The notes under the pieces are model-generated. The model did not search any database, was not told the DNA's origin, and worked only from the letters and a program-made list of their open reading frames with translations. This document shows positions 6,455 through 23,220 of a stretch of DNA of 23,220 bases, in pieces. Location of the stretch: positions 1-23,220 of the IMG/VR virus record IMGVR_UViG_3300047564_003371; one strand, given 5' to 3'. The stretch's first letter is position 1, and each line of letters starts with the position of its first letter. The DNA comes from a virus. A program made the position numbers and the translations under genes.

Positions 6455-6460
6455 TTTGAA

Positions 6461-7086: not shown

Positions 7087-7087
7087 A

Positions 7088-8236: not shown

Positions 8237-8290
8237 AAACTATTCTCATGTTGGTGGCACCAAACTTAAAAATGCCAGGGAGAGGATAAG

Positions 8291-8503: not shown

Positions 8504-8521
8504 GATTTCATTAGAAGTCTT
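8502..8521 (+). other. Hairpin at the stop codon of the fibre stub
   Basis: AAGATTTC (8502-8509) pairs with GAAGTCTT (8514-8521) with one G-U pair and loop ATTA, overlapping the TAA at 8501-8503. There is no T-tract, so it is not a standard terminator; it may shield the RNA end or influence coupling to the next gene. Confidence 0.3.
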
Positions 8522-8538
8522 GTAATGAGGATATAAAA

Positions 8539-11500
8539 ATGCCATTAATTAAAGCAAGATCAAGCTCGATTATGGAAAGCGTTGACCTACGTGGTCAACC
8601 TACAGCGGAAACACCAGTGCAGGCAACTAATACAAATCAGTTGGCTAGCACAGCATTCGTTAAGACAGCTATTGCAGAACTTATTGATAGTTCTCCCCAA
8701 CTGTTAGACACATTGAATGAATTGGCTGCTGCAATCGGCGACGATCCTAATTTTGCAACTACAGTTGCCAACAGTATTGCTACAAAAGTACCATTAGATG
8801 GTAGCGTAGCAATGACTGGTGAGTTGACCTTAGCCGGAGTTCCAACCTTCGATCTAAGTGCAGCTACCAAAAAATATGTCGATGATGCCATCGACGCACA
8901 GATGATCTACAGCACAGATGATGTTGCTGAAGGTACAACTAATTTATACTATACAAACGGTCGTGTTCGTAGTGCTGTAAGTCTAGACAGCGACAACGGC
9001 GTAGTATTAAGTTATGACCAATCGACTGGTCAATTTACATATCGTCACCCAACCAGTGACGGTGTATTAGAAGGTGCAACAAACTTATACTTTACAACAG
9101 CTCGTGCTCGTAACAGTATTAGTATGAACAGTGATGACGGCACTATTATTTCTTATAGTGCAATTACTGGTCAAATTACATTTACAACACCTGATACAGA
9201 TAAAATTGTTGAAGGTTCAACAAATTTATACTTCACAACAGCTCGCGCTCGTGCAAGTATCAGTAATGGTGCTAACATTGCATACGACAGTAGCACTGGT
9301 GTTATCAGCACACAGGCTGCTGTTTGGAGTGTAAACGGACAAGAACACGATGTTGTTTTAGACACAGATGATATCGCTGAAGGTTCGACAAACTTATACT
9401 TCACTAATGCTCGCGGAGCTGGTGCAGTAAGTTTAACAACAAATGACAGTAACGTTTTAAGTTACAATACTGGCACAGGTGTATTTACATTTGTTAAGCC
9501 AACAACTGATGCTATTTCAGAAGGTAGTGTAAACTTATACTACACTGATGCTCGCGTTCGCGCAGCCGTTAGTGCAGGCGGTGATCTAAGCTATGATGCT
9601 GGTACAGGTATTTTCAGTTACACAACACCAACAACAGATGGTATTACTGAAGGTTCTACTAACCTATACTTTACCAATGCTCGTGCTCGTAACGCAGTAA
9701 GCCTAACCAGCGATAATGCCAACGTTCTAAGCTATGATAATTCAACTGGTGTATTTACATTCAGTCTGGGTAATCAAACAACAGATGACGTTGCTGAAGG
9801 TACAAACAACCTATACTTTACTGACGCTCGCGCTCGCGCAAGTATCAGCACAACTGGTTGGCAAATCAGCTATAACAGCGGAACTGGTGTAATTACAGTG
9901 GCAACACCTAGCACAGATGATGTTGCTGAAGGTACAACTAATTTATACTACACAACAGCTCGCACTCGTGCTGACGTCAGCGCAGTTGACGCAGGTGGTG
10001 ATGGATCATTTGCATATGATAGTGCAACTGGTGCATTTACTTACACTGGCCCAAGTGCAAGTGAAGCAAGAGCTCATTTCTCTGCTACTGACGCAGGTGG
10101 TGATGGATCATTTGCATACAACAGCACAACTGGTGTATTCACATACACTGGCCCAAGTGCTAGTGAAGTTCGTGCTCATTTAAATTCTGCACAAACTAGT
10201 GGTGATGGTACATTCAGCTATGATAACACAACCGGTGTATTCACCTATGTTGGTCCAGATGATGCCGACTATCGTCAAGCTGTTAGTGCAAATGCTGCCA
10301 GCGGCGATGGTAATTTACAATACGACAGTAACACTGGTGTGTTCACATATGATGGTCCTACAAATACTGATTATCGTGGTGCCATTAGTGCAACTAAAGT
10401 TAGTGGTGATGGTGACATCGCTTATAACAGCACAACCGGTGTAATTAGCTATACTGGTCCAAGCAGTGCAGAAGTTCGCGCTCATCTAAGCGCAGTTGAT
10501 GCAGGCGGTGATGGCTCATTCAGCTACGACAGTGCTACAGGTGCATTTACCTATACAGGTCCAAGCGCATCCGAAGTTCGTGCTCACCTAAGTGCAACTA
10601 CAGCTTCTGGAGTTACATACAACAGCACAACTGGTGTAATTGCTCTAGCAAGTATTCCTAACAGCAGTTTAACAAACAGTGATATCACCGTTAACGGTTA
10701 TACAACAGCGTTAGGCGGAAGCGTAACATTAGATACAGATGATGTATCTGAAGGTACAACGAACCTATATTACACACAGGCTCGCTTTGACAGTGCGTTA
10801 GCTGCTAAAGACACTGATGATGTTGCAGAAGGTTCTAACCTATACTACACACAGGCTCGCTTTGACAGCGCATTTGCTGCCAAGTCTACAACAGACCTAG
10901 CTGAAGGTTCAAACTTATACTACACAACAGCTCGCACTCGTGCAGATGTTGGTGCTGGTACAGGCGTAAGCTATAACAGCGGAACTGGTGTATTCAGTAT
11001 TGGCCAAAGTGTTGGTACAACTGACAACGTTACATTCAATGATCTAACAGTCAGCGGTGATCTAACAGTTAACGGTACATTGACAACAATCAATTCTACT
11101 GATTTAACAGTTACAGATAAGAACATCACTATTGCTCAAGGTGCTGCCAATGCAGCCGCTGCCAATGGTGCTGGTATTACTGTTGATGGTGCTAATGCTA
11201 CAATCACTTATGCTAGCGGTACAGATAGCTGGGAATTTAACAAAGACGTTAATGTCAACGGTGATTTCTCTACAACTGGTAGCCTAACAGCAGCCGGTTT
11301 CAATGGTCCTTTAACAGGCAACGTAACTGGTAACGTAACTGGTGATTTAACTGGTAATGTAACAGGTAACGTAGCTGGTGATGTTACAAGCACAGGCACA
11401 AGCACATTCGCAACGGTCGATATCAACGGTGGTAACATCGATGGTACAGTAATTGGTGGCGTAGCTCCTGCCGCTGTAACTGGTACAACAATTACAGCTA

Positions 11501-13551
11501 ATACTGGTTTCAGTGGTAACCTAACTGGTAACGTAACTGGTAACCTAACAGGTGATGTAACTGGTAACGTAACTGGTAACCTAACTGGTAACGTAACAGG
11601 TCAAGTCAGCGATATCAGCAACCATGACACTGATGCTCTAGCAGAAGGCACTACAAACTTATACTTTACTGATACTCGCGCTCGTAATGCTGTAAGTCAC
11701 GTAGATGCAGGCGGCGATGGTAGCTTTAGCTACGATAGTGCAACTGGTGTATTCACATACACTGGTCCAAGCGCCAGCGAAGCTCGTGCTCACTTCACTG
11801 CAACAAACAGTGGTACAGGTCACGGCGCACTATCTTACGATAGTTCAACAGGTGCGTTTACATTCGCTAAAGTAACTGCTTCTAATATCCGTGGCGAATT
11901 AAGTGCTATTAAAGTTAGTGGTGACGGTAACTTTAGCTATAATTCAACAACCGGTGCATTTAGCTATACCGGTCCAGATGATGCTGATTATCGCACAGCA
12001 GTAAGCGCAGTTGATCTAGGTGGTGATGGCTCATTCAGCTACGATAACACAACCGGTGTATTCACATATACAGGTCCAAGTGGTGCCGAAGCAAGAGCTC
12101 ATTTCTCTGCTATTGACGCTGGCGGAGATGGCAGTTTCAGCTATGACAGTGCAACCGGTGAATTCACATATACTGGTCCAAGTGCTAGTGAAGCAAGAGC
12201 CCACTTTAGCGCAACCACAGCTTCTGGAGTTACATACGACAGCGCAACTGGAGTATTCAGCCTAGCTAATATTCCAAATAGCAGTTTAACCAATGATAGT
12301 ATTACAATCAACGGTGCTACTATTGCTTTAGGTGGCAGTGATACATTAGACACTGATGATATTGGTGAAGGTTCTACAAATGAATACTTTACACAAGCTC
12401 GCGCCCGTAACGCAGTTAGCTTGACAACAAGTGATGCAACAGTTCTGAGTTATGATAGTTCAACCGGTGTATTTAACTTTGACTTAGGCGGTATTAATAC
12501 CGACGAAGTAACAGAAGGTACAACCAACTTATACTTCACACAGGCTCGTGCTCGTCAAAGTATCAGTGCAACTGGCTGGCAAATCAGCTATAACGATGCA
12601 ACTGGTATCATTTCTGTAGCAACACCTACAACTGATGACGTAGCAGAAGGTGCGACAAATCAGTATCACACAACTGCTAGAGTTAGAAATGCTATTAGCC
12701 TAACATCTGACAACCAGGATGCTCTGAGCTATAATAGCACAACTGGTGCATTTGCATTTAGCTTGTCTAGCGTAGACACTGATGAAATCGCAGAAGGTGC
12801 GACAAATCTATATTTCACTACTGCTCGTGCTCGTAACAGCGTCAGCAACGGTAGCAATATTGATTATGATCCATCTACCGGTATAATCAGCACACAAGCC
12901 GCTGTTTGGAGTGTTAACACACAAACAGGCGACGTTGTATTAGACACTGACAATATTGCAGAAGGTAGTAACAACCTATACTTCACAGATGCTCGTGCTC
13001 GTAGTGCTATCACTCTAACTACAGATGACAACAACATTCTAGCATACAACACCGGTACAGGTGCATTTACATTTGTTACACCTACAACTGATTCAATCAG
13101 CGAAGGTGCAGTAAATCTATACTACACTGATAATCGTGCAGATGCAAGAATTGCTGCGGCAAGTATCCGTGATTTAAGCGATGTTAATAGCTCAGAAGCT
13201 CTACAAGACGGTTACACGCTTGTTTGGAGTAGCGCATTAGGCGAATTCGTTCCACAGAACATTGCCGTTACAGCTACAACACTGAACTTTACCGGTGACG
13301 GTACAACAACTAGCTTCAGCACTGGTGTAAATGTTACTTCAATTGATAACACACAAGTGTATATCAACGGTTTAATCCAAGCACCTACATACTCTTACAC
13401 AATTAGCACAGCTAGTAATGTAACAAGTATTGTGTTTGATACAGCCCCAGAATCCAACGATTATATCTTCGTTCGCGTAAGCTCTACTAGCACATTGACT
13501 GCTGGTGGTATTCTAAACGAATCAAGTAACATCGACGGTGGTACATATTAA
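8539..13551 (+). CDS. Giant repetitive tail fibre protein (1670 residues)
   Basis: The N-terminus (MPLIKARSSSIMESVDLRGQ, then SSPQLLDTLNELAAAIGDDP) is a T4-like fibre start and probably attaches to the tail or a partner fibre. The body is built of repeats. About 18 copies read D-D-x-x-E-G-(S/T)-(T)-N-L-Y-(F/Y)-T-x-A-R-x-R. Eleven copies of about 32 residues read GGDGSFxYDSxTGxFTYTGPSASEARAH, in two blocks of six and five. A central linker holds NVTFNDLTVSGDLTVNGTL and TGNVTGNLTG runs. Residues about 1583-1648 form an INGLIQAPTYSYTI domain shared with the gene at 7088-8236. Such fibres trimerise and carry receptor contact, usually at the tip. The Shine-Dalgarno is GAGGA, and a terminator follows 19 bases after the stop. 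No frameshift is visible across 5 kb. The repeats make copy-number change likely. Confidence 0.92.
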   Translation: MPLIKARSSSIMESVDLRGQPTAETPVQATNTNQLASTAFVKTAIAELIDSSPQLLDTLNELAAAIGDDPNFATTVANSIATKVPLDGSVAMTGELTLAGVPTFDLSAATKKYVDDAIDAQMIYSTDDVAEGTTNLYYTNGRVRSAVSLDSDNGVVLSYDQSTGQFTYRHPTSDGVLEGATNLYFTTARARNSISMNSDDGTIISYSAITGQITFTTPDTDKIVEGSTNLYFTTARARASISNGANIAYDSSTGVISTQAAVWSVNGQEHDVVLDTDDIAEGSTNLYFTNARGAGAVSLTTNDSNVLSYNTGTGVFTFVKPTTDAISEGSVNLYYTDARVRAAVSAGGDLSYDAGTGIFSYTTPTTDGITEGSTNLYFTNARARNAVSLTSDNANVLSYDNSTGVFTFSLGNQTTDDVAEGTNNLYFTDARARASISTTGWQISYNSGTGVITVATPSTDDVAEGTTNLYYTTARTRADVSAVDAGGDGSFAYDSATGAFTYTGPSASEARAHFSATDAGGDGSFAYNSTTGVFTYTGPSASEVRAHLNSAQTSGDGTFSYDNTTGVFTYVGPDDADYRQAVSANAASGDGNLQYDSNTGVFTYDGPTNTDYRGAISATKVSGDGDIAYNSTTGVISYTGPSSAEVRAHLSAVDAGGDGSFSYDSATGAFTYTGPSASEVRAHLSATTASGVTYNSTTGVIALASIPNSSLTNSDITVNGYTTALGGSVTLDTDDVSEGTTNLYYTQARFDSALAAKDTDDVAEGSNLYYTQARFDSAFAAKSTTDLAEGSNLYYTTARTRADVGAGTGVSYNSGTGVFSIGQSVGTTDNVTFNDLTVSGDLTVNGTLTTINSTDLTVTDKNITIAQGAANAAAANGAGITVDGANATITYASGTDSWEFNKDVNVNGDFSTTGSLTAAGFNGPLTGNVTGNVTGDLTGNVTGNVAGDVTSTGTSTFATVDINGGNIDGTVIGGVAPAAVTGTTITANTGFSGNLTGNVTGNLTGDVTGNVTGNLTGNVTGQVSDISNHDTDALAEGTTNLYFTDTRARNAVSHVDAGGDGSFSYDSATGVFTYTGPSASEARAHFTATNSGTGHGALSYDSSTGAFTFAKVTASNIRGELSAIKVSGDGNFSYNSTTGAFSYTGPDDADYRTAVSAVDLGGDGSFSYDNTTGVFTYTGPSGAEARAHFSAIDAGGDGSFSYDSATGEFTYTGPSASEARAHFSATTASGVTYDSATGVFSLANIPNSSLTNDSITINGATIALGGSDTLDTDDIGEGSTNEYFTQARARNAVSLTTSDATVLSYDSSTGVFNFDLGGINTDEVTEGTTNLYFTQARARQSISATGWQISYNDATGIISVATPTTDDVAEGATNQYHTTARVRNAISLTSDNQDALSYNSTTGAFAFSLSSVDTDEIAEGATNLYFTTARARNSVSNGSNIDYDPSTGIISTQAAVWSVNTQTGDVVLDTDNIAEGSNNLYFTDARARSAITLTTDDNNILAYNTGTGAFTFVTPTTDSISEGAVNLYYTDNRADARIAAASIRDLSDVNSSEALQDGYTLVWSSALGEFVPQNIAVTATTLNFTGDGTTTSFSTGVNVTSIDNTQVYINGLIQAPTYSYTISTASNVTSIVFDTAPESNDYIFVRVSSTSTLTAGGILNESSNIDGGTY
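9982..10602 (+). repeat. Block 1 of the GGDGSF-type fibre repeat, six units of about 96-100 bases
   Basis: Six consecutive units encode GDG(S/T/N)FxY(D/N)SxTGxFTYTGP followed by SASE(A/V)RAH or DADYR segments. Units 1, 2 and 6 are nearly identical as protein and close at the DNA level. The block ends in a TTASGVTYNSTTG and IPNSSL module. Confidence 0.85.
11314..11604 (+). repeat. Short TGN(V/L)TG repeat runs
   Basis: Two runs (about 11314-11382 and 11509-11604) of a 12-base-scale unit of the form ACTGGTAACGTA encode TGNVTGNLTGDVTG strings. The low-complexity DNA is prone to slippage. The runs flank a segment encoding TSTGTSTFATVDINGGNIDG, a pattern common in marine phage fibres. Confidence 0.8.
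11698..12218 (+). repeat. Block 2 of the GGDGSF-type fibre repeat, five units
   Basis: Five units of the same kind as block 1, one of them diverged (GTGHGALSYDSSTGAFTF), again ending in a TTASGVTYDSATG and IPNSSL module. Both blocks share the DDADYR variant unit, so the whole segment was probably duplicated rather than single units only. Confidence 0.8.
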
Positions 13552-13570
13552 TCTTTGATTAATATCTAAG

Positions 13571-13597
13571 AAAAGGGTGCAATTTGCACCCTTTTCC
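13571..13597 (+). terminator. Intrinsic terminator after the giant fibre
   Basis: The stem AAAAGGGTGC (13571-13580) with GCACCCTTTT (13586-13595), loop AATTT, ends in TTTTCC. It is a clear stem-loop with a short T-run and works in the sense of the giant fibre gene. Confidence 0.8.
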
Positions 13598-13610
13598 ATT
13601 TGTAAATAAA

Positions 13611-13618
13611 CATAAATA
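13611..13618 (+). promoter_or_regulatory. T4-type late promoter octamer
   Basis: CATAAATA, one mismatch to TATAAATA, lies 13 bases after the terminator and 19 bases before the ATG at 13638, giving a predicted transcript start near 13624. Confidence 0.5.
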
Positions 13619-13637
13619 TATAAAATGGATTCCAGAT

Positions 13638-14138
13638 ATGCCAATATTTCGCGGTAAAAACTTTGTCAGCGCTGTCTCAGATTATAAAGATAGTGTTCGC
13701 CTAGCCACACGATCAAATATTAATCTTTCTGCTAATATTTTAACAATAGACGGAATAAGTCTTGCCGATAAAGATAGAGTGTTATTACTTGGCCAATCTA
13801 CTCAAAGTCAAAATGGAATTTATAGTTGGAATATTTCTACCAGCAGATTGACCAGGTCCGATGATGCCGATAGCATCTTTGAACTTAGTTCAGGTAATAA
13901 AGTTTATGTAGAAGAAGGCAACGCTCATGCCAAATCGACTTGGACTCTTATAACCAATGGGGTCATCAATCCCGGATCTACTAATTTAGTGTTTGCCAAA
14001 GAAGGCAGAATTAACACAACAGATGTCAGCGGAACATATGGTTCTGCTACCAAAACTTTGCAGGTCACTGTAGATGAAACCGGCGAAATTAACGGTATTA
14101 CAGCCCTTGATATTAATGTCGACGGCGGCGAATTTTAA
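13638..14138 (+). CDS. Fibre-associated structural protein with VRLATRSNI / GIYSWN module
   Basis: I place the start at the ATG at 13638, giving 166 residues beginning MPIFRGKNFVSAV; an earlier in-frame ATG at 13584 lies inside the terminator and upstream of the promoter. Residues about 15-125 follow a pattern well known in phage tail and fibre proteins: VRLATxxNI, LTIDGIxLAxxDRVLL, QSxxxNGIYSWN, LTRSDDAD and then GNKVYVEEGNAHAKSTWTL. This is an all-beta domain thought to be part of fibres or baseplate accessories. The remainder is a short beta-rich tail ending in a DINVDGGEF segment. Its own terminator-promoter boundary upstream means it can be expressed separately from the giant fibre. It may be an adaptor or chaperone-like partner for the next fibre. 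Confidence 0.82.
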   Translation: MPIFRGKNFVSAVSDYKDSVRLATRSNINLSANILTIDGISLADKDRVLLLGQSTQSQNGIYSWNISTSRLTRSDDADSIFELSSGNKVYVEEGNAHAKSTWTLITNGVINPGSTNLVFAKEGRINTTDVSGTYGSATKTLQVTVDETGEINGITALDINVDGGEF

Positions 14139-14167
14139 CCAATATCCTTAGCATAAGCTATTTTTTT

Positions 14168-14175
14168 GATAAATA
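14168..14175 (+). promoter_or_regulatory. T4-type late promoter octamer before the 712-residue fibre
   Basis: GATAAATA, one mismatch to TATAAATA, lies 58 bases before the ATG at 14234, with a predicted start near 14181. The leader includes a further TATAAATT at 14205-14212 and a small ORF at 14199-14255 that overlaps the fibre start. Confidence 0.45.
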
Positions 14176-14198
14176 CTTTTTAGAATAGTAGGGAACGA

Positions 14199-14255
14199 AT
14201 GACCTATAAATTCAACAGGAGTATATACTCAAAATGGCCAATACAATCATTTTAA
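14199..14255 (+). CDS. Possible 18-residue upstream ORF overlapping a fibre start
   Basis: The ATG at 14199 is preceded by AGGG with good spacing and reads MTYKFNRSIYSKWPIQSF before TAA, running 22 bases into the fibre gene in another frame. The fibre's own AGGAG lies within it. It could couple or tune translation of the fibre, or be chance. Confidence 0.2.
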   Translation: MTYKFNRSIYSKWPIQSF

Positions 14256-16372
14256 AGCGCAGTGCGACCCCAGGTAAGGTACCTACCACCGGTCAATTAG
14301 CATTGGGCGAAATCGCAATCAACACATATGATGGTTTACTATATATCAAGAGAGACAACGGCACATCCAGCGTTGTTCAAATTGGTGGTGTAACCAGTGT
14401 TAACGGCGAAACAGGTTCGGTAACTATCGATACAGGCGACGTTGCTGAAAACGGTAATCTTTATTTTACAAATGCTCGCGCACGTAGCGCGATCAGTGCT
14501 GGTTCTGGCATTAGCTATAACAGCTCAACTGGTGTAATTACTACAGCACAAGGTCTAGCAACAAGTTCTAGTCCAACATTTGCTGGTTTAACCCTAACCG
14601 GTAATCAAACAATTACTGGTGATATTCTACCTAGCGCAGACAACGTTTACAGCTTAGGTAGTGCAAGTTACATGTGGAAAGACGTGTTCGTCGGTCCAGG
14701 TTCTTTGTATATTAACGGACAAAAAGTTCTAGAAGATAACAGTGGTACAATTACAGTTACCGCCGATGTAAACCAAAGTCTACAACTTTTAACTAGCGGT
14801 ACAGGTAATGTTCAATTGGGCACCGGTGCTTCTGGTGTAATTCAAGTTTCATCAACATTACAAATTGCCAGTGGTAAGAATATTACTGACTCAGCAGGTG
14901 TAAAAGTCAACTTTGGTGATCCAATTGAAATGAACAGCAACAAGATCATTGGTCTTGGTGCTCCAAGTGCAAGCACAGATGCTGCAACTAAAGGATATGT
15001 TGACACATCAGTGGCAGCAATCAGCACAAGCAGCATTAGTCAAGGTAATAGTAACATTACAGTAACTGATACAGGTACTGGTACAGTTACAGTTACTGTT
15101 GATGGTTCAACAGCATTAACAGTTGATGCTAATGGTGTTGTAGTTGCTGGTAACTTCACAGTTAGCGGTACAACAACAACAGTTAACTCTAACACAGTAT
15201 CAGTTGCTGACAATATTCTAACATTGAACAGCGATGTAACTGGTGCTCCAAGTCAAAACGCTGGTATTGAAGTTGAGCGTGGAGATGAAGCAAACACACA
15301 AATTCGTTGGAACGAAGGTACAGATAAGTGGACATTTACTAACGACGGCGCTGTTTACTATCCAATAGCAGCAAACACCGACGACTTAGCTGAAGGTTCA
15401 ACAAACCTATATCATACAACAGCCCGTGCTCGTGGCGCAGTAAGTGCCAGCACAGCAACTGGTATCGGTTACAATAGCACAACTGGTGTGTTTAGTCTGA
15501 GCGGTATCCCAAACAGTAGTTTGTCTAACAACAGTATTACAATCAACGGCACATCAGTGGCATTAGGCGGCACACGCACTCTAGACACAGATTCTGTCAG
15601 CGAAGGTTCAACAAACTTATATCATACAACAGCTCGTGCTCGCAGTAGCGTAAGTGCTGGAACAGGTATCAGCTATAACAGCACAACTGGTGTAATTTCC
15701 ACAAGTGCTATTCCAAACGCAAGTTTGTCAAACAGCACAGTTACAGTTGGTTCTACATCAATCAGCTTGGGTAGTTCAGCTACAACAATCGCTGGTTTAA
15801 CTAGCGTTACATCTACTAGCTTCACTGGTGCCTTAACTGGTAATGCTGATACAGCTACTAGTGCTGGTAAGTGGACAACAGCCCGTACCATTACACTGGG
15901 TGGTGATTTAACTGGTAGTGTAAGCATTGACGGTAGCGCTAACGTTACATTGACTGCTACAGTTGCAGGCAACACGGTTGCACTTGGTACAGATACAACT
16001 GGTAACTACATGGTTGACGTAAGTGCAGGTACTGGCATCAGCGTAAGCCATACAGCAGGTGAAGGTTCTACAGCTACAATTACTAACACTGGTGTTACAG
16101 CTCTTAACAGCTTAACAGGTAGCAGAACACTAGCTCACTATCATGCTACATTCCAAACTGTAACAGCCGCACAAGAAACAACTAACGTTTCTGGCACAGT
16201 TACATTTACATTTGCTGATTTAAGTGGTAGCGTCCATCATATGGTATTACTAAACCGTCTGCCATTACGTCCAACTGAATACAGCGTAAGCGGTACAACG
16301 TTAACTCTATCAGCTGGTTTAGGCTTGTTAGAAGGTGATGAAGTTGAAGTAACAGGAAGTAAATTAAGTTAA
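14234..16372 (+). CDS. Tail fibre protein, 712 residues
   Basis: The N-terminus (IILKRSATPGKVPTTGQLAL followed by GEIAINTYDGLLYIKRDNG) is the usual start of many phage fibre and tropism-determinant proteins. The body shares modules with the giant fibre: three EG-TNLY-T-AR-R repeats, an IPNSSLSNNSITINGTSVAL module, and a TVSVADNILTLNSDV, IEVERG, IRWNEGTDKWTFTNDG stretch known from marine phage fibres. A 225-base module (15863-16087) is repeated in the next gene. Residues about 637-712 are unique, with SLTGSRTLAHYHATFQTVTA and a hydrophobic tip, the part most likely to touch the receptor. The Shine-Dalgarno is AGGAG 15 bases upstream. Confidence 0.92.
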   Translation: MANTIILKRSATPGKVPTTGQLALGEIAINTYDGLLYIKRDNGTSSVVQIGGVTSVNGETGSVTIDTGDVAENGNLYFTNARARSAISAGSGISYNSSTGVITTAQGLATSSSPTFAGLTLTGNQTITGDILPSADNVYSLGSASYMWKDVFVGPGSLYINGQKVLEDNSGTITVTADVNQSLQLLTSGTGNVQLGTGASGVIQVSSTLQIASGKNITDSAGVKVNFGDPIEMNSNKIIGLGAPSASTDAATKGYVDTSVAAISTSSISQGNSNITVTDTGTGTVTVTVDGSTALTVDANGVVVAGNFTVSGTTTTVNSNTVSVADNILTLNSDVTGAPSQNAGIEVERGDEANTQIRWNEGTDKWTFTNDGAVYYPIAANTDDLAEGSTNLYHTTARARGAVSASTATGIGYNSTTGVFSLSGIPNSSLSNNSITINGTSVALGGTRTLDTDSVSEGSTNLYHTTARARSSVSAGTGISYNSTTGVISTSAIPNASLSNSTVTVGSTSISLGSSATTIAGLTSVTSTSFTGALTGNADTATSAGKWTTARTITLGGDLTGSVSIDGSANVTLTATVAGNTVALGTDTTGNYMVDVSAGTGISVSHTAGEGSTATITNTGVTALNSLTGSRTLAHYHATFQTVTAAQETTNVSGTVTFTFADLSGSVHHMVLLNRLPLRPTEYSVSGTTLTLSAGLGLLEGDEVEVTGSKLS
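15863..16087 (+). repeat. 225-base fibre module, copy 1
   Basis: It encodes AGKW..ARTITLGGDLTGSVSIDG and onward to GEGSTATITN. Copy 2 lies at 16759-16983 in the next fibre gene with the same length and no gap. They share a 24-base exact match at 15992-16015 and 16888-16911. Confidence 0.85.
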
Positions 16373-16387
16373 TATAACTAGTCAAAG

Positions 16388-16411
16388 GCAAGGGGTTGAC
16401 AATCCCCTTGC
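16388..16411 (+). terminator. GC-rich hairpin after the 712-residue fibre, no T-tract
   Basis: GCAAGGGG (16388-16395) pairs with CCCCTTGC (16404-16411) around loop TTGACAAT. The stem is perfect and sits 15 bases after the fibre stop, but no T-run follows, so it may be a weak terminator, an RNA-end protector or a processing site. Confidence 0.45.
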
Positions 16412-16494
16412 TGATGCGCTAATTTAAAATTAGAAGCTCTGGGAACAACTGATTGTATCCTTCGAACTAGTTAAACCCCATAAGGAGGATTAAA

Positions 16495-17817
16495 ATGTCT
16501 AAACGTGTATTACGAAGTGCAGGAACTACAACATCCCAGTCACTTGACGCAACAAAAAATTATAAGTATAACTCTTCAGGTACGTTAGTCGAATCTACAG
16601 GTACCCCCGGCGGCGATGAGATTGTTTTTACAGGTAGCAAGTCTAGCTTGAAGCGTCTTGCAGACCTGGAGCGTAACGTTTCTATTCTTGCCGCTAAGTC
16701 GTTAACAGAAGACGGTTCAAGTTCTGGTTATTACAGTTCCATTGATTATGCAAGTCGAGCAGGTAAGTGGAGTTCATCACGCACAATCACATTAGGTGGT
16801 GATTTAAGTGGTAGCGTTAGTATGGATGGTAGTGCTAACGTAACGTTAACTGCCACAGTAGCTAGCAACACAGTTGCACTAGGTACTGATACAACTGGTA
16901 ACTACATGGTTAACGTCACTGCTGGTACTGGTATCAGTGTAAGCCACACACAAGGTGAAGGCTCTACAGCTACAATCACTAACAGTGACTTAGGTAGTTC
17001 ACAGAACATATTCAAGAACTTCACAGACGGCACAACAACTGCCGCTGCCGACAGCAACAACGATACATTCAAGTTCCGTGGTTCTGCAGGTGTAACAGTT
17101 GCAGTGGCCAGCGATGACGCTACACACGGTGATAGCGTATTAGTAAGTTTGAGCAGTGTTCCAAACAGCTCATTGGCTAACAGCAGTATTACTATTAACG
17201 GTACAGCAATTAGCTTAGGCGGTTCTGGATCAATCAATACTAGTGCTATCAGCGAAAGTGGTAACTTGTATTACACAGATGCTCGCGCTCGCGCAGCCAT
17301 TACAGGCGGAACAGGTGTTACTGTTAGCACTGGTGTTGTGAGTATTGGCCAAGCAGTTGGTACAGGCAGTAGCGTTCAGTTCAACGCAATTGGTATCGGT
17401 ACAGCAGCAGGCGCCACAGCTGGTACAATTCGTGCTACAAACGAAATTACAGCTTACTACTCAGACAAGCGCCTAAAAGAAAATATTAAGCCAATTGAAA
17501 ATGCTCTTGCCAAGACATTACAGTTACATGGTGTTACTTATAACGCCAACGATGTAGCTGCAAGTTTTGGTTATACAAACAAAGAAGCACAAGTTGGTTT
17601 GTTAGCTCAAGACGTTAAAGCAGTTCTTCCAGAAGTAGTTGTACCTGCTCCGTTTGACCTAGTCGTTCGAGACGGCAAAGAAGTCAGCAAGTCTGGTCAA
17701 GATTTCATGACTGTTAAGTATGAAAAGATTGTTGCTCTTCTAGTAGAAGCAATCAAGGAACTTAACGACAAAGTCGAAAGTCTAGAAGCCCAACTTGGTG
17801 GATCTAAGTCACTATAA
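16495..17817 (+). CDS. Tail fibre with C-terminal Peptidase S74 self-cleaving chaperone domain
   Basis: The 440-residue product has a short N-terminal coiled-coil-like part (SSLKRLADLERNVSILAAKS, about 50-70), then residues about 88-165 holding the 225-base module shared with the previous fibre, an IPNSSL-like module (SVPNSSLANSSITINGTAIS), and one NLYYTDARARAAI repeat. From about residue 318 to the end is an S74 domain: YYSDKRLKENI with the Ser323-Lys328 pair at the usual i, i+5 spacing, then QVGLLAQDVKAVLPEVV, VKYEKIVALLVEAIKEL and a final coiled coil. In known S74 proteins (endosialidases, fibres) this domain drives trimer folding and then cuts itself off, here expected at S323. The Shine-Dalgarno is AAGGAGG, the strongest in the window. 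Confidence 0.94.
   Translation: MSKRVLRSAGTTTSQSLDATKNYKYNSSGTLVESTGTPGGDEIVFTGSKSSLKRLADLERNVSILAAKSLTEDGSSSGYYSSIDYASRAGKWSSSRTITLGGDLSGSVSMDGSANVTLTATVASNTVALGTDTTGNYMVNVTAGTGISVSHTQGEGSTATITNSDLGSSQNIFKNFTDGTTTAAADSNNDTFKFRGSAGVTVAVASDDATHGDSVLVSLSSVPNSSLANSSITINGTAISLGGSGSINTSAISESGNLYYTDARARAAITGGTGVTVSTGVVSIGQAVGTGSSVQFNAIGIGTAAGATAGTIRATNEITAYYSDKRLKENIKPIENALAKTLQLHGVTYNANDVAASFGYTNKEAQVGLLAQDVKAVLPEVVVPAPFDLVVRDGKEVSKSGQDFMTVKYEKIVALLVEAIKELNDKVESLEAQLGGSKSL
16759..16983 (+). repeat. 225-base fibre module, copy 2
   Basis: It matches 15863-16087 over the full length, with protein differences mostly conservative (for example GSVSIDG against GSVSMDG, TAGEGS against TQGEGS). It is long and similar enough to serve as a recombination site between the neighbouring fibre genes. 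Confidence 0.85.
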
Positions 17818-17827
17818 TCAATGACAC

Positions 17828-17846
17828 AGGGAGACTATGTCTCCCT
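17828..17846 (+). terminator. Hairpin after the S74 fibre, no T-tract
   Basis: AGGGAGAC (17828-17835) pairs with GTCTCCCT (17839-17846), loop TAT, 10 bases after the stop. The stem is strong but the following bases are AGTCTAGATT, so it is a weak or RNA-stabilising structure rather than a classic terminator. Confidence 0.45.
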
Positions 17847-17860
17847 AGTCTAGATTAAAT

Positions 17861-17868
17861 GATAAATA
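17861..17868 (+). promoter_or_regulatory. T4-type late promoter octamer
   Basis: GATAAATA, one mismatch to TATAAATA, 24 bases before the ATG at 17893, predicts a transcript start near 17874. The gene has an AGGAG Shine-Dalgarno at 17879-17883. Confidence 0.5.
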
Positions 17869-17892
17869 AATCAGCATAGGAGATTTACTGAG

Positions 17893-18087
17893 ATGGCTAT
17901 TTTACCAGCAACTGGTTCCGAAATTGTTATGGGTCGTGTTAAACAAGCGTATACTAACGTTGCCCCCGGTGCAAGTCAAAACATTACACTAAGTGGAACA
18001 CTTGGTGCATACATGGGTCACACAGCAGGAACTCAAATTAGTTTAAGTTCACGTTTTGGCGGACAAACAACACCTTACGCATACTAA
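17893..18087 (+). CDS. Small virion-like protein, 64 residues
   Basis: The product is Gly/Ser/Thr-rich with MGRVKQAYTNVAPGASQNIT and a C-terminal SLSSRFGGQTTPYAY. Short proteins with a SEI.MG start and an FGG-TTPY end occur among fibre and tail genes of marine T4-like phages, but I cannot name a function. It has its own late promoter upstream and an intrinsic terminator directly downstream, so it can be a one-gene transcript, which fits a structural protein made in its own amount. There is no membrane segment or signal peptide. Confidence 0.8.
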   Translation: MAILPATGSEIVMGRVKQAYTNVAPGASQNITLSGTLGAYMGHTAGTQISLSSRFGGQTTPYAY

Positions 18088-18108
18088 AATTATAATTAGA
18101 AAAACATC

Positions 18109-18116
18109 TATAAATA
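18109..18116 (+). promoter_or_regulatory. Perfect late promoter overlapping a terminator
   Basis: TATAAATA matches the consensus exactly. Its last five bases are inside the left arm of the terminator at 18112-18143. The predicted first transcript base is about 18122, past almost all of the left arm. Confidence 0.75.
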
Positions 18117-18143
18117 CCTCAAACTAGTTTGAGGTATTTTTTT
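18112..18143 (+). terminator. Intrinsic terminator for 17893-18087, also holding the next gene's ribosome site
   Basis: The left arm AAATACCTCAAA (18112-18123) and right arm TTTGAGGTATTT (18128-18139) pair perfectly with loop CTAG; seven T residues (18137-18143) follow. The right arm contains GAGG (18131-18134), correctly spaced (9 bases) as Shine-Dalgarno for the ATG at 18144. Confidence 0.85.
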
Positions 18144-18701
18144 ATGGCCACTAAAACATCAAAATCTGCTGGCAATGCATTACAGCCAATGTTCGACCTT
18201 TGCCCGCACTTTAGCCAAAGCGAATTTGAATTAACAAATTTTTCCGTTTCCACAGGAGTTTCTTATCCAAGATTTATTATTAATACAATAAACAGGATTC
18301 GAAAGATAGACAGTGATTTGGAATCTGAAAAGAGAACGTTCGAGCGTAATGTTCTTCTAGAAGAAAAACGACAATTAGAAGACTTTTTAAGTAAACAAGA
18401 CACTAACAAAGTAGAAACATCTTTAAAAAATTGGCAAGGCATTGAACAAGAATATTGGGTAAATTATTTAGGAAAAATTGCTGCCATAGAAATTCTGACA
18501 TCCGGAAAACCTTCAGCTGAAACAATGGATAAGATGGTAAAACTTCCTGAAGATGCATATATCACATCTACTCAAATCTGTGTCAAGTTGGCTAATGCAA
18601 TTCGTGAAGCTACAGTCAAGGCAGAAGAAGCAGTGGGAGTATTTAAAAATCAAGAAAATTCCAATGCTCCTAAAAAACTTGTTCTGAAAAAAGTTAAATG
18701 A
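18144..18701 (+). CDS. Unrecognised helical protein before the glycosyltransferase
   Basis: The start is the ATG at 18144, giving 185 residues; the frame also runs back to a TTG at 18129 inside the terminator stem, which is unlikely. After an N-terminal segment with LQPMFDLCPHFSQSEFEL and GVSYPRFIINTINRIRK, the protein is mostly charged helices (residues about 50-120, coiled-coil-like), then PEDAYITSTQICVKLANAIRE and a Lys-rich tail (KKLVLKKVK). There is no membrane segment, signal or catalytic motif that I can name. The stop overlaps the glycosyltransferase start (ATGA), so the two are co-expressed. A structural or adaptor role is possible, but I do not recognise the family. Confidence 0.85.
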   Translation: MATKTSKSAGNALQPMFDLCPHFSQSEFELTNFSVSTGVSYPRFIINTINRIRKIDSDLESEKRTFERNVLLEEKRQLEDFLSKQDTNKVETSLKNWQGIEQEYWVNYLGKIAAIEILTSGKPSAETMDKMVKLPEDAYITSTQICVKLANAIREATVKAEEAVGVFKNQENSNAPKKLVLKKVK

Positions 18702-19333
18702 CCGAAGACATTCGTATAGCAGTATGCGTTCCTACTAGGGACATAATGCACAGTTCTTGTGCTTATTCTCTGTATAATCTAGCAACCAGTTTAACTGAAT
18801 ACGGAATTGAACATAAGTTATTTGTTAGTCCAGGAACATTAATTGCTAATCAAAGACACGAGTTAGTTTTATCTGCTCAAGAATGGGGCGCAACTCATGT
18901 TATGTTTATCGACAGCGACATAGAGTTTAGTCCTTATCATGTCATTGATTTAATCGAGTTCGACGAAGAAATTGTAGGAGCTGCTTATAGCAAACGAGTC
19001 GAACCGATAATCCCTACGGCATGGCACAAAATAGATGATTGGGACAGTTATATCAAGGTAGAAGAACAAACAGAAAGCCATATCAAAATAGAAGCTATGG
19101 GCTTAGGCTTTTGTTTGATAAAGACGTCTGTCTTTGAACGTTTGGACTTACCTTGGTTTCAATTGGGTTTTCATAATAATCAATATACCGGAGAAGATAT
19201 TGAATTTTTTAGAAAGTGCAATGACAACAGTATACCAATTTGGCTCGATATACAAATCACATGCGAGCTTAGTCATTTAGGCACAAAGAGATTTAAAGTC
19301 GTTGACGATATTGAAATAAACCTTGCCACTTAA
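18698..19333 (+). CDS. Glycosyltransferase, GT-A fold (GT2-like)
   Basis: The 211-residue protein begins IRIAVCVPTRD, the first beta-strand and sugar-nucleotide site of GT-A enzymes. It has a metal-binding DxD motif, D72-S-D74 in HVMFIDSDIEF, an acceptor-side MGLGFCLIKTSVFERL segment (134-149), the GEDIEFFRKC motif (165-174) typical of phage and bacterial GT2-like proteins, and SHLG near 192-195. It should transfer a sugar from a nucleotide donor. The target is not shown; being at the end of the fibre island suggests virion proteins, and cell-wall or DNA-base targets are alternatives. The start overlaps the previous stop by four bases. The 3' end overlaps the minus-strand gene 19293-19682 by 41 bases. 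Confidence 0.88.
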   Translation: MTEDIRIAVCVPTRDIMHSSCAYSLYNLATSLTEYGIEHKLFVSPGTLIANQRHELVLSAQEWGATHVMFIDSDIEFSPYHVIDLIEFDEEIVGAAYSKRVEPIIPTAWHKIDDWDSYIKVEEQTESHIKIEAMGLGFCLIKTSVFERLDLPWFQLGFHNNQYTGEDIEFFRKCNDNSIPIWLDIQITCELSHLGTKRFKVVDDIEINLAT

Positions 19334-19682
19334 CTAACCATCTGTTCAGTCTGATGATGTTAGTTTCAGCTGCCGCCATATTTTTTGCATCTACAAAATA
19401 TCTTTGAACAGCCAAATCTTTTTCTGTATTTTCTATTAGTAAGCTCAAGGTCTTATCTTCTTGACTGAGCAGTAATTTTATAATGGGATGAGTGATTTCT
19501 TCGTTGTTAAGAAGATGTTGTGTTTGTAAATACCAACGTTCTACATAACTAGTTTCTGGTTTGAATAGACTATTAAGCAGAGGATTGTTTAGCCTGTTGT
19601 CCCAACAGTAATATAAGTCTATAGATCTAGCTACCTTAAGCGGCTTTTCTGTCTTCGGAAATGGTATTATCTCTGCTGCCAT
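19293..19682 (-). CDS. Unrecognised small protein downstream of the Nudix gene
   Basis: The 129-residue product begins MAAEIIPFPKTEKPLKVARS and is mostly helical, with WDNRLNNPLLNSLF, an ERWYLQTQHLLNNEE segment and a basic C-terminus (RLNRWLVKWQGLFQYRQRL). It has no membrane segment or metal site. Its ATG lies inside the end of the Nudix frame (47-base overlap), fitting the tightly packed minus-strand operon gp14-gp15-Nudix-this gene. The Shine-Dalgarno is weak (GTGGA too far upstream), so it is probably translated by coupling. Its last 41 bases are antisense to the glycosyltransferase gene. I do not recognise the family. Confidence 0.75.
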   Translation of the reverse strand: MAAEIIPFPKTEKPLKVARSIDLYYCWDNRLNNPLLNSLFKPETSYVERWYLQTQHLLNNEEITHPIIKLLLSQEDKTLSLLIENTEKDLAVQRYFVDAKNMAAAETNIIRLNRWLVKWQGLFQYRQRL

Positions 19683-20112
19683 TCTTTTTATCCACCCACG
19701 TATAAAAGTTCTTAAATTTAGTTTTCAGTCTGGTTGATCCTAACATTTGTCTGACTTTAGGATGTAGCGGACCAGGTAGCCCGTCTATATCAGTCCATGC
19801 ATAACCACTGTTTTCCCAATTTAAATCTGGTATAAATTCTTTGCCCACTAAGACAATATAAGTGTCATAGATAAAGTCTTTACTGCGACTTTGATAACTG
19901 TGCAAAGGTAATATTTTTTTAATTTTTGTTAGATTAAGTTCTTCTTCTAATTCTCTTAGTAGAGCATCAACTATGGCCTCATTAACCTCTACCTTACCCC
20001 CGGCGAATGTCCATGTGCCTGGATGACTTTCATGAGGAGAGCGTAGCACAGTCATTACTTTGCCAGACTCTTCGCTGACAATAATTGCTCCTACTCCTCT
20101 AAACTGTTTCAC
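19636..20112 (-). CDS. Nudix hydrolase
   Basis: The product has an intact Nudix box, G-x5-E-x7-R-E-L-x-E-E, read as GGKVEVNEAI then LLRELEEEL; the glycine late in the consensus is Asn. Nudix enzymes cleave nucleoside diphosphates linked to another moiety (dNTPs, nucleotide sugars, NAD, capped RNA); the substrate cannot be read here. I place the start at GTG 20112, giving 158 residues beginning (V)KQFRGVGAIIVS. That GTG overlaps the gp15 TGA as GTGA, and GGAG lies nine bases upstream. The frame extends to TTG at 20130 but nothing favours it. The box is preceded by LRSPHESHPGTWTFAGGK, the usual substrate-pocket region. A hydrolase inside a neck-gene operon is unusual. Confidence 0.9.
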   Translation of the reverse strand: MKQFRGVGAIIVSEESGKVMTVLRSPHESHPGTWTFAGGKVEVNEAIVDALLRELEEELNLTKIKKILPLHSYQSRSKDFIYDTYIVLVGKEFIPDLNWENSGYAWTDIDGLPGPLHPKVRQMLGSTRLKTKFKNFYTWVDKKNGSRDNTISEDRKAA

Positions 20113-21461
20113 AGATATAATCTCCACCAACCATGTTGATATGTGCCTTCGACAGCACTAATCCACTGACCATTACGCCACTCATATAATAAGTTCGATG
20201 CTATATTTAACACCACTGCATTAGAATTACTAGCACTATCAAACGATACTATCCAGTTACTTCCGTTATATTCGACGATGTCGTTAGCCTTAGCATTAAT
20301 AACTCCCCACTGACTTCCGTTAGGCACATCGTTGATTACAAGATATCGTTGACCTAGAGACGCCGCCGGTAAGTTTTTTCCTGGAGCTACTTTAATAGGA
20401 TTAATTACAGCAGATATTGCAGGAATAGTAGCGTCTGGCAGTGTGTTAATGTCTATAGTAAGATTTAATATATTAGGATATCCATCTTCTATGCTATCTA
20501 TCGTAGCAATAATGTCCTGACTAAAATCACTAGGGTCGGGCCCTCTTCTTAGCCTTAGATTACTAATACCAAATTTTATTTCTCCGTAAGGCTTTAATAC
20601 GTTTTCCCAAGTTAATGGATTACCCTGTTCATCAGTAGTGCCACCACCTCTACTTAATATAGTAGCACGATTGCCTTCGATGCTGGCCTGCAATTTTAAA
20701 TCGTCGAAAGTTACAACAACCCATTCTTTATTAGGTATTGGGTTGCTAGGATCCCACTCAAAAATATCTTGATTTTGTTTTCTTTTAATTTCAGTTAGAA
20801 TAGTATGTATTAAAGTCTGACGCTTGACCTTAGCAGGAGGGTTGATCAAAATAGGCAGTGTAAAGTTTAGTGCAGCCACATCAATAATATCGTCGGTACC
20901 TTGCGGCACTTGACGAGCACTCCATACTACGTTAACTAACTCAATAAAAGTCAAATTGCTCCAGTCGAACGGGTTATCGTTTGTTTTCAAGTTAATACTA
21001 GGATTAAACAAAACTAACAACTGTTCCATGAGCTGTAGCTTTTGATCAGTGTTACTGGTCCATATATCGACCTGCACAGTCAGGTCGTAAGGTACTGGCA
21101 TATAACGTTCGATGGTATAAGTATTACCTACTTCGTCGTCAACATATTCTCCTGTTTGATAATTAAACTTTTTTTCGTAAACTTGAACCTTATCAACGTG
21201 GGTGGGGTTCATTCTACGTTCTGCGCTAATTTGCAAATCTGTAACATATACGCTGATAAAAGGCACAGTATTAATCATGTTTTCACTTTGATTCTTCATG
21301 ATGTGAGCAGCCATACGATTAATGTCACCATAGCGCACAGGAACTTGAATATAACTTTCTTGCCCGTTTCTATCTTTGCCAGTTTTTATACTGAAGCCTC
21401 CTAGTATACGCATGAACTGTGTCAAATAGCGTCTTATTTGTTCATCGTAAAAAAATTGCAT
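20109..21461 (-). CDS. gp15: Tail sheath stabiliser and completion protein, T4 gp15 family
   Basis: gp15 forms the hexameric ring ending the tail and binding the neck, stabilising the sheath. The start MQFFYDEQIRRYLTQFMRIL parallels T4 gp15 (FGYFYNSSFRRYATLMGDLF), followed by the matching VPVRYGDINRMAAHI (T4: VPITYASKEHFM), a VPFISVYVTDLQISAERRMN segment, PYDLTVQVDIWTSNTDQKLQ and the LLVLFNPSINLKTND region, in the same order. At 450 residues it exceeds T4 gp15 (272). Residues about 353-450 are an added beta domain with LGQRYLVIND, AKANDIVEYNGSNWIVSFD, LYEWRNGQWISAVEGTYQHG. I recall a comparable C-terminal module in marine cyanophage gp15. The gene starts two bases after the gp14 stop and overlaps the Nudix start by four bases. 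Confidence 0.9.
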   Translation of the reverse strand: MQFFYDEQIRRYLTQFMRILGGFSIKTGKDRNGQESYIQVPVRYGDINRMAAHIMKNQSENMINTVPFISVYVTDLQISAERRMNPTHVDKVQVYEKKFNYQTGEYVDDEVGNTYTIERYMPVPYDLTVQVDIWTSNTDQKLQLMEQLLVLFNPSINLKTNDNPFDWSNLTFIELVNVVWSARQVPQGTDDIIDVAALNFTLPILINPPAKVKRQTLIHTILTEIKRKQNQDIFEWDPSNPIPNKEWVVVTFDDLKLQASIEGNRATILSRGGGTTDEQGNPLTWENVLKPYGEIKFGISNLRLRRGPDPSDFSQDIIATIDSIEDGYPNILNLTIDINTLPDATIPAISAVINPIKVAPGKNLPAASLGQRYLVINDVPNGSQWGVINAKANDIVEYNGSNWIVSFDSASNSNAVVLNIASNLLYEWRNGQWISAVEGTYQHGWWRLYL

Positions 21462-21463
21462 GA

Positions 21464-22510
21464 TTAGTAATCTACCTTAGGTTTAATAACTTGGCTTAGT
21501 GCTTGACGTTCTGGCATCTCTTCGCCACCTACTACTGTTATAGATTTATTATTAATAAATGGTGCGGCATTCAGGACGTTATCTCTTAAATCAACAGGAC
21601 CAGACTGAACATCCATACGCTGCCAACGAGTGCCCCTATAGGCAAACAGCACAGGCGGATTATAGTCTACACGTAAAAAGAAATCGCCCTGTTTCGGATT
21701 CAACGGGAAGCTCAAGCCCTGACTTATATCTTCACCGTGATCGTAAGTTGGGTTAGCGCCTTCTTGATATTTCTTTGTAGTGTCTTGTAATATATTTTTG
21801 CCGTCATCTAATATAGTGGGGGCTAATTGTTCACCACGCTCAACAATCGCGTTGCTAATTTTTAATTCTTGTTGATAAGTGCTGAGTGCTTCTTTTAATG
21901 TATCAACACCGTTGTCTGCTTTATTTTGTAGAATATCTCTGTATTCTTGAGCGTCAGTCATTGGACTAGCTTTGATACGCCAAATGTGTGGATACCAAGT
22001 TTGACTAAAGCCTTCGGCAGCTCGAGCAGCATCTTGAATCACGTAAAATTTATTAATAGCTGGCTTGGTTTGGTCTAATAATAAGTCATCCCGAACATGC
22101 GGTAATTCAATGACGTCCCCGGCCATTAGTTTACGGCCCATTCGTTCAACCATATCGTTGGTATGAAAGGTTATAAAAATAGTATCAGCACTTAGGAACA
22201 ATCCGAACTGCGTTAAATCAAAATCCTGGTCTCCTACATTGTAGACACCGCGGAGTTCGTAAACATCTGGGTCGTATATACGGTCTCTGTTTTCCAAAAA
22301 TAACAAGTCTTGTATTTTGGTTTCGTTAAGTATATCGTCGGCACGATGATTTGGTTTAGTTGGGTCAGTGCTGGCACCTTGATCAGCAGGCTGTAGGTAT
22401 TTGTGAACCAATACCGCAGTCCCGCCAACCAAAAATTGTTCGCGGATCACCCGATCCATGAAATGGAAATCGTTGGTTTTTTCGTTTTTCCAAAGGCTTA
22501 GTCTTGGCAT
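21464..22510 (-). CDS. gp14: Neck protein, T4 gp14 family
   Basis: gp14 joins gp13 in the head neck, where it completes filled heads before tail attachment. The 348-residue product (T4: 256) has segments I know from marine T4-like gp14: the FHFMDRVIREQFLVGGTAVL start, LLFLENRDRIYDPDVYELRG, VYNVGDQDFDLTQFGLFLSA, NDMVERMGRKLMAGDVIELP, and EGFSQTWYPHIWRIKASPMT. A long helical stretch (about 185-245) and a C-terminal beta part (FLRVDYNPPVLFAYRGTRWQ) follow. The ATG at 22510 has no Shine-Dalgarno and is seven bases past a GGTAAATA octamer. T4 order is gp13-gp14-gp15-...-gp20; here gp14-gp15 are on the opposite strand, with gp13 absent from the window. Confidence 0.9.
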   Translation of the reverse strand: MPRLSLWKNEKTNDFHFMDRVIREQFLVGGTAVLVHKYLQPADQGASTDPTKPNHRADDILNETKIQDLLFLENRDRIYDPDVYELRGVYNVGDQDFDLTQFGLFLSADTIFITFHTNDMVERMGRKLMAGDVIELPHVRDDLLLDQTKPAINKFYVIQDAARAAEGFSQTWYPHIWRIKASPMTDAQEYRDILQNKADNGVDTLKEALSTYQQELKISNAIVERGEQLAPTILDDGKNILQDTTKKYQEGANPTYDHGEDISQGLSFPLNPKQGDFFLRVDYNPPVLFAYRGTRWQRMDVQSGPVDLRDNVLNAAPFINNKSITVVGGEEMPERQALSQVIKPKVDY

Positions 22511-22517
22511 AGTCTAG

Positions 22518-22525
22518 TATTTACC
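22518..22525 (-). promoter_or_regulatory. Late-promoter-like octamer before gp14
   Basis: On the minus strand GGTAAATA (two mismatches to TATAAATA) ends seven bases before the gp14 ATG at 22510, giving a predicted start at about 22512 and a two-base leader. Confidence 0.35.
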
Positions 22526-22548
22526 TGCTTTGAAACGGTTTTGATTAT

Positions 22549-22577
22549 TTGACACAAATTGGTAAAGGTCTTATAAT
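22549..22577 (+). promoter_or_regulatory. Perfect consensus sigma70-type promoter for the SprT-like gene
   Basis: TTGACA at 22549-22554, a 17-base spacer and TATAAT at 22572-22577 match the bacterial housekeeping consensus in every position. The predicted start is about 22584, the A of the ATG. Unlike the other promoters here it needs no phage late factor, suggesting early expression by host RNA polymerase. Confidence 0.85.
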
Positions 22578-22583
22578 ACAAAT

Positions 22584-23015
22584 ATGGACATAGAAATTCA
22601 CACAAAATCTGCTGAAAAACGCAGATTATTAGAATCCTTTGCAAAGGTATATGCAAAGCTCTTAAATATTGAACACCGCAATGGTGCTATAATAATAGCT
22701 ACTAAACGAGATGTTCGTTCTGAGCACGAAGCTGAGGGTTTGACCTTGGGCATGGGCAAAGATATTTTTATTTTCCTACAAAGTGATCTGGGCCTAGGAG
22801 ATACCCTAAGGGTTTTGGCGCATGAGATGGTTCATGCTAAACAGCACCTTTTAGGACAGATCAAATACCAAGTCCATCGTGGCAGGACCCAAACATACTG
22901 GATGGGTCGACTAAACAAGAACGACTACCTGCGTCAACCATGGGAAATTGCCGCATACAGGCAAGAGTCCATTTTGATGCATCGAGCAGTTCAAATCATT
23001 ACTAAAGGAATGTAA
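22584..23015 (+). CDS. SprT-like zinc metallopeptidase domain protein
   Basis: The 143-residue protein contains HEMVHAKQ (H80-E81-M82-V83-H84), the HExxH zinc and catalytic site, and PWEIAAYRQE (119-128), whose E121 may be the third zinc ligand, as in SprT-like or WLM-like domains. There is no signal peptide or membrane segment, so it acts in the cytoplasm. Related cellular proteins (SprT, Spartan) cut proteins crosslinked to DNA; phage members are often annotated by domain only, and the substrate is unknown. The ATG coincides with the predicted transcription start from a perfect sigma70 promoter, with no Shine-Dalgarno, so leaderless translation is likely. No other in-frame Met occurs before residue 57. 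The next gene starts directly after its stop (TAAATG). Confidence 0.85.
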   Translation: MDIEIHTKSAEKRRLLESFAKVYAKLLNIEHRNGAIIIATKRDVRSEHEAEGLTLGMGKDIFIFLQSDLGLGDTLRVLAHEMVHAKQHLLGQIKYQVHRGRTQTYWMGRLNKNDYLRQPWEIAAYRQESILMHRAVQIITKGM

Positions 23016-23220
23016 ATGGCAACCAAACGTTCTACAAAAACTACAGACAAAGTGGCTTGGCGCTTTGAAGCCCCTGCCAAAACCGTACCTTATCGCGATA
23101 CTGATGCAAAGTATGTAGGCGATGAACCAATTTATCCTGAGATAGAAACTCAGCGCACATGGTCGCCTTCGGAATACCAAACTAAACTGATGCGCTCGCT
23201 AAATTGGTATGCTCATACAC
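23016..23220 (+). CDS. Unrecognised protein, 5' part, cut by the window end
   Basis: The ATG overlaps the preceding TAA by sharing its context (TAAATG, zero gap). The 68 visible codons read without stop, beginning MATKRSTKTTDKVAWRFEAP, then KTVPYRDTDAKYVGDEPIYP and a helical QRTWSPSEYQTKLMRSLNWY segment. The basic N-terminus and W/Y-rich helix are all that can be described; no family is recognised. It is co-transcribed with the SprT-like gene from the sigma70 promoter. Confidence 0.75.
   Translation, partial: MATKRSTKTTDKVAWRFEAPAKTVPYRDTDAKYVGDEPIYPEIETQRTWSPSEYQTKLMRSLNWYAHT

Follow-up and report, generated by a model that had tools for sequence, protein, structure and literature searches.

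A consensus sigma70 promoter set on the start codon of a zincin-fold gene, probably giving a leaderless message, recurs in T4-like jumbo phages

The gene for a 143-aa zincin-fold protein in a T4-type virus record is probably transcribed from an early-type host promoter that gives a leaderless message, and it would belong to a conserved minor class of such genes in T4-like jumbo phages. Because many related giant phages share the layout, it looks like a genuine mode of expression for selected genes and not like a chance match. Promoter and spacing, the absence of a Shine-Dalgarno (SD) sequence from the predicted transcript, conservation, recurrence and the +1 register shared with sister promoters are features of the sequence itself; the actual 5' end, the early timing, the leaderless (70S-type) initiation and any benefit we infer from them.

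The window, by which we mean the whole analyzed stretch of 23,220 bases, is a virus record with the T4-type morphogenesis genes portal gp20, major capsid gp23 and tail sheath stabiliser gp15. Among named phages its capsid matches best those of jumbo phages such as Phosso and PA5oct (about 67%), and it is 94% identical to the capsid of three environmental contigs. The elements of the promoter site and the two genes behind it are as follows:

22549..22554, + strand: -35 hexamer TTGACA, exact consensus, also found in the window-clade relatives L002-L006
22555..22571, + strand: 17-nt spacer, the initial part of which, CAAATTGG, is conserved in an alignment of the window's promoter family
22572..22577, + strand: -10 hexamer TATAAT, exact consensus
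22578..22583, + strand: ACAAAT, the 6 bases from the -10 to the start codon, with the final base as predicted -1; a counterpart gap of 5-7 bases is retained in leaderless relatives
22584..22586, + strand: ATG, predicted transcription start and translation start, in the register of the ATA triplet of SD-led sisters; M1 is invariant in 31/31 aligned homologues
22584..23015, + strand: gene for the 143-aa zincin-fold protein (HEMVHAKQ, PWE), loosely SprT-like
23016..23220, + strand: start of the next gene, which runs off the window; its own SD, AAAGGA, overlaps the end of the first gene

The initial annotation had described a perfect consensus sigma70 promoter upstream of the ATG at 22584, and this was borne out. 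With a consensus -35, a spacer within 16-18 nt and a consensus -10 the site has the form of a host sigma70 early promoter, and scanning both strands of the window for TTGACA-N15..19-TATAAT revealed this single match. Shuffled sequences contained a mean of 0.02 matches, with one present in 2 of 100 shuffles.

Textbook spacing between -10 and +1 puts the transcription start on the A of the ATG at 22584, and the +1 of the 22549 promoter is predicted to be this base, perhaps with a shift of one or two positions. The same start had been proposed initially; the six-base gap and the +1 marked by SD-led sister copies agree with it, the real 5' end being a prediction. In frame, a stop codon is located 21 nt before the ATG without any ATG, GTG or TTG in between, as checked on L001, which agrees with the window in all 70 upstream bases. 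A single SD-like string is present, AAAGG at 22564-22568; it belongs to the promoter spacer, ahead of the -10, and would therefore be absent from a transcript of this promoter. The absence of an SD, also claimed before, was thus confirmed, and it extends to all 27 leaderless-type homologues described below, whose scanned upstream stretches contain no SD string and which all use ATG as start codon. A start further downstream was rejected: the next in-frame Met is residue 57, and the structural model places strand 1 at residues 2-6. The site therefore combines a predicted +1 at the start codon, a predicted transcript without SD and an AUG start, as found in leaderless messages.

The promoter is part of a family. 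Copies of TTGACACAAATTGG-N9-TATAAT were found in 97 stretches of IMG/VR, and the 87 non-redundant copies comprise 67 SD-led (median gap 31), 10 leaderless-type and 10 of neither type; five of the 10 leaderless-type copies belong to SprT-like genes of the window clade. In the 67 SD-led copies a pyrimidine precedes the predicted +1 in 87%; the +1 itself is A (72%) or T (28%), +2 is T in 88% and +3 is A in 85%, and the complete triplet ATA is present in 40 of them. This ATA start mark is in the same register as the leaderless ATG. A similar distribution was seen for the copies with an NTAAAT spacer in L001-L101 (n=54; 9 leaderless-type, 40 SD-led, 1 ambiguous, 4 neither). Family copies are frequently arrayed in rows ahead of small genes, and such rows are typical of early regions of phages; the repeated family therefore fits early transcription by the host polymerase. 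The 22 records picked for holding a family copy contain 1-6 copies each, which gives the family the many copies of an early promoter, and three of these records carry a capsid gene 94% identical to that of the window.

In the relatives L002-L006 TTGACACAAATTGG, TATAATACA and the ATG are retained with a gap of 5, 6 or 7 bases, while the flanks and most of the rest of the spacer are variable. The layout is also retained in homologues at 26-36% identity, mostly with the spacer TTGACAATAAAT or one near it, plus TATACT. An upstream classifier assigned 91 distinct homologues to a leaderless type (27), an SD-led type (28) and others (36); identical proteins and those with fewer than 75 upstream bases were left out of this set, and many of its low-scoring rows may be other zincin families. 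Without the 20 rows from pattern-fetched loci (7 of them leaderless-type) the leaderless type amounts to 20 of 71 homologues. In a tree of the 66 best-scoring homologues the layout is present in 26 of 39 members of one clade (20 of 29 without pattern-fetched rows) and in 0 of 27 members of the other, and it requires 7 changes, at least five of them forced by well-supported branches. The layout is conserved deep in the tree yet scattered on it, and is therefore old and kept, and also repeatedly gained or lost. Since 40 of the 66 homologues lack it, it is not essential to the gene.

The same genomic slot can also hold an SD-like leader. G033, G035 and G037 have the gene order of the window, with upstream neighbors 84-86% and 76-77% identical and downstream ones 63-75%; the protease in the slot is just 26-31% identical to that of the window over the aligned part. 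The promoter is kept in all three, exactly in G035 and with TACAAT as -10 in G033 and G037 (G033 has an additional single spacer change), and each is followed by an SD-like leader. Comparison of TATAATACACTTATA from G035 with TATAATACACTTATG from the window-clade L004 revealed a single-base difference, located at the predicted +3. L006 additionally contains a porin gene (Porin_4, Gram-negative; 5043-5921, with a further porin gene at L390 18588-19490) between the structural genes and the protease gene, and G033 has a 41% identical porin at that place; no cellular source of the L006 porin was found among the genome contigs searched. In L021 of the distant clade (6001-9217) the protease gene is followed by genes for a MoxR-type ATPase and a DUF2201 metallopeptidase-VWA protein, each SD-led, a pair described in jumbo phages in the available part of PMC7824862.

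To place the gap in a wider context we collected the TTGACA-N17-TATAMT sites of the window and of L001-L101, 123 after removal of redundant ones. For ORFs of at least 40 codons, the first ATG follows at a gap of 5-7 in 27 of the 123 and at 8-9 in none; at the remaining sites it is mostly located at 20-46, where an SD is usual (72 sites). A TTG candidate at gap 4-8 was seen once among the 123. The 27 sites precede 14 SprT-like genes, which brought the loci in, and 13 other genes, two of which are ambiguous with an SD-led ATG downstream. Whole-record counts yielded 35 sites with a gap of 5-7 in 20 of 27 records, several of these sites opening no ORF, compared with 10 sites with a gap of 9-11 in 5 of 27. 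With a 17-nt spacer the ATG lies at gap 6 in at least 120 stretches versus 25 at gap 10, and with a 16-nt spacer in 27 versus 0. A strong promoter at gap 4-8 precedes 24 of 803 ORF starts versus 53 of 64,000 random positions, 19 of the 24 being SprT-like genes, which brought the loci in. At L082 16850 (367-kb record G022) a TTGACA-N17-TATAAT apparently precedes, as judged by eye, a tRNA-like sequence and not an ORF.

These distributions bear on the question whether the promoter, although real and early, is a minor source of the working message, most of which would originate at other start sites or by read-through and so acquire a leader; the ATG at +1 would then be due to short intergenic space and leaderless translation would be weak or incidental. 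We consider this improbable. The homologues in L026 and L028 point in this direction, as they have no nearby promoter of their own and follow an upstream gene. In the window, on the contrary, the upstream neighbor is a structural gene on the opposite strand, and the -35 of L002-L004 and L006 is directly preceded by a GC-rich inverted repeat with T's behind it (identified by eye), which would stop read-through. The two peaks of the gap distribution and the preserved gap of 5-7 bases likewise speak against other starts as the main source.

A T4-type middle or late promoter, and thus a gene that is not early, is very improbable. The position of the zincin-fold gene beside structural genes would suit it, but the consensus -35 and TATAAT are of the host sigma70 type, and a late promoter was rejected for this site because the T4 late motif TATAAATA is absent at its -10. 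The statement that every other promoter of the window is late-type is unsupported, since TATAAATA occurs 2 times (6447 and 18109) with 1.99 copies expected by chance. The copy at 6447-6461 is located directly after a hairpin (6417-6442); a 75-aa gene has its ATG six bases further on, and the motif possibly marks a leaderless late start, two motifs in the window being no more than chance. In 18109-18146 a hairpin of 12 pairs comes after the motif and ends in T's immediately ahead of an ATG at 18144. Finally, a perfect promoter match without function is hardly credible in view of the 0.02 matches expected for the perfect form, the conservation, the recurrence and the sister promoters, even though promoter-like sites in general are no commoner than in shuffles (40 in 5000-23220, only that at 22549 scoring 12/12, versus a shuffled mean of 46.6, sd 6.6).

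Leaderless-type starts precede 44 protein families, a number that is not a frequency because some loci were fetched by a leaderless pattern. Fourteen of them, chosen as recognisable-looking, were scanned with Pfam and representatives of the other 30 with PHROGs; families above the library's own cut-off or with a named PHROG were regarded as recognised. These include deoxyribonucleotidase, deoxynucleotide kinase, 5'-3' exonuclease, UvdE endonuclease, TOPRIM, P-loop kinase, MazG, 2OG oxygenase, a primase-like protein and one terminase small subunit. Among the 30 families 18 had no PHROG match and the rest mostly matched families of unknown function, the named matches being a dNMP kinase, the primase-like protein, an HNH endonuclease-labelled family (the Pfam match of a relative is DUF2201 metallopeptidase-VWA) and the terminase small subunit. 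The largest family among the loci analyzed (48 members; e.g. L194 4221) encodes a protein of about 114 aa with no Pfam or PHROG match. The recognised families are mostly DNA, nucleotide and repair proteins. The takeover or defence role assumed in the initial annotation stays conjectural. Owing to the terminase small subunit, a packaging gene, the class is not purely non-structural. The deoxyribonucleotidase (NT5C) gene has a leaderless-type promoter of its own in 9 of 9 distinct upstream sequences:

L006 8677-9168; L391 3015-3500; L394 3734-4219; L002 5261; L003 6551; L004 9916: deoxyribonucleotidase (NT5C), in the morphogenesis region

The cultured phage PA5oct contains two such sites, one of which precedes no ORF. 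The other lies before EST35_0240, a putative exonuclease with its annotated start 7 bases after TATAAT (ATG at 158242) and neighbors annotated as structural genes; a leaderless-type gene of L263 encodes a protein with 44% identity to it. This example makes the leaderless class testable in a cultured phage. Such sites are absent in the cultured relatives Phosso, Vibrio 2.275 and DLP_6, and the one site of Erwinia phage pEa_SNUABM_47 falls inside a CDS. The exonuclease homologues of ECML-4, S-PM2 and X1 have no such promoter; those of the Salmonella phages SD-1_S14 and 7t3 have TATAAT followed by a short stretch with AGGAG and are therefore not leaderless.

The window protein was modeled confidently by AlphaFold, with a mean pLDDT of 93.1. 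Structural alignment of the model gave a Z score of 11.2 with the YbeY-type structure 1oz9, up to 10.2 with M1 aminopeptidase domains, 9.0 with Wss1 and 7.9 with SPRTN, several zincin folds scoring alike. H80, E81 and H84 of the HExxH motif as well as PWE are invariant in 31 of 31 homologues, and the Glu of PWE is likely the third metal ligand. Foldseek with the model found no match at E <=0.001, the best hit of a sequence profile search against the PDB had an E of 0.15, and NCBIfam and Pfam contained no entry matched above its own cut-off. The score with PF10263 (SprT-like) was 16.5 bits at a curated cut-off of 25.6; this profile matches 16 of the 31 homologues at E up to 0.1. Two effector metalloprotease profiles gave weak matches (PF14891, 19.8 bits, cut-off 25; NF041347, 16.6 bits, cut-off 150), which we read as shared HExxH only. 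The original label SprT-like applies loosely, the zincin fold and HExxH being present and the score lying below the Pfam SprT cut-off. The accessible part of a review (PMC7824862) proposes, from their variation among close relatives, that jumbo-phage SprT-like proteases cleave host proteins, and the divergent slot (26-31% versus 76-86% for the two large upstream neighbors) fits this proposal, the one point in favor of a host-directed role.

We propose that the promoter at 22549 acts as a member of the phage's own multi-copy early-type sigma70 family, on which host RNA polymerase would start at the A of the ATG or within one or two bases. On the resulting leaderless zincin message ribosomes would have to recognise the 5'-terminal AUG instead of an SD, and the following gene at 23016, which is probably read from the same message, would keep its own SD; its relative in L006 encodes 401 aa (phrog_11903, a family of unknown function). 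For the zincin-fold gene and the deoxyribonucleotidase gene, both inside the morphogenesis region, such a compact self-contained start may render expression independent of the late programme. Early leaderless expression by the host polymerase, as initially suggested, is thus supported by the host-type promoter and by the leaderless geometry kept in homologues, with timing, start and translation as predictions. A tentative and rather doubtful extension is that two translation programmes operate from one promoter family, SD-led for most early genes and leaderless for a small fixed set (protease, nucleotide and DNA enzymes). If true, 5' AUG recognition would keep up production of the leaderless set when canonical initiation becomes altered or saturated in the course of infection. 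A conserved leaderless class, SD-led sisters and an SD-led allele of the slot together offer a natural experiment that addresses the reasons for which genes lose their leaders, and gene finders gain a signal for starts that SD-based calling could overlook or misplace.

T4-like early promoters have a strong sigma70-type consensus, are present in many copies and are read by the host polymerase; the promoter family of the window is like them in consensus and copy number and differs in its leaderless subset. With SprT-like, Wss1 and SPRTN metalloproteases and the jumbo-phage SprT-like proteases (available part of PMC7824862) the window protein has the HExxH and the zincin fold in common, but it scores below the Pfam cut-off, and 1oz9 and M1 aminopeptidase domains match as well or better. 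For the jumbo phage AR9, UTRs of 26-491 nt are given, and the accessible text of the AR9 paper terms phage transcripts "often leaderless"; among the papers listed by our searches of an open-access library, we recognised none on a class of leaderless genes in jumbo or T4-like phages. In the Deinococcus-Thermus leaderless genes with a "-10 region adjacent to ORF" (PMC12340547, available part) the -10 element lies a few bases before the ATG, as here, but these are genes of cells in which the -10 motif alone can suffice, whereas the phage genes have a full -35 and -10 and are a minority. Leaderless phage genes are customarily cited as single cases, and lambda cI is the phage case of a leaderless mRNA in the accessible part of PMC9031893. 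The genes described here resemble the leaderless mRNAs of bacteria and phages such as lambda cI in the AUG at or near the predicted 5' end, the lack of a transcribed SD and the use of ATG only; in contrast to such single cases they form a recurrent class of many genes in lytic-type jumbo phages, under a promoter family that is otherwise SD-led.
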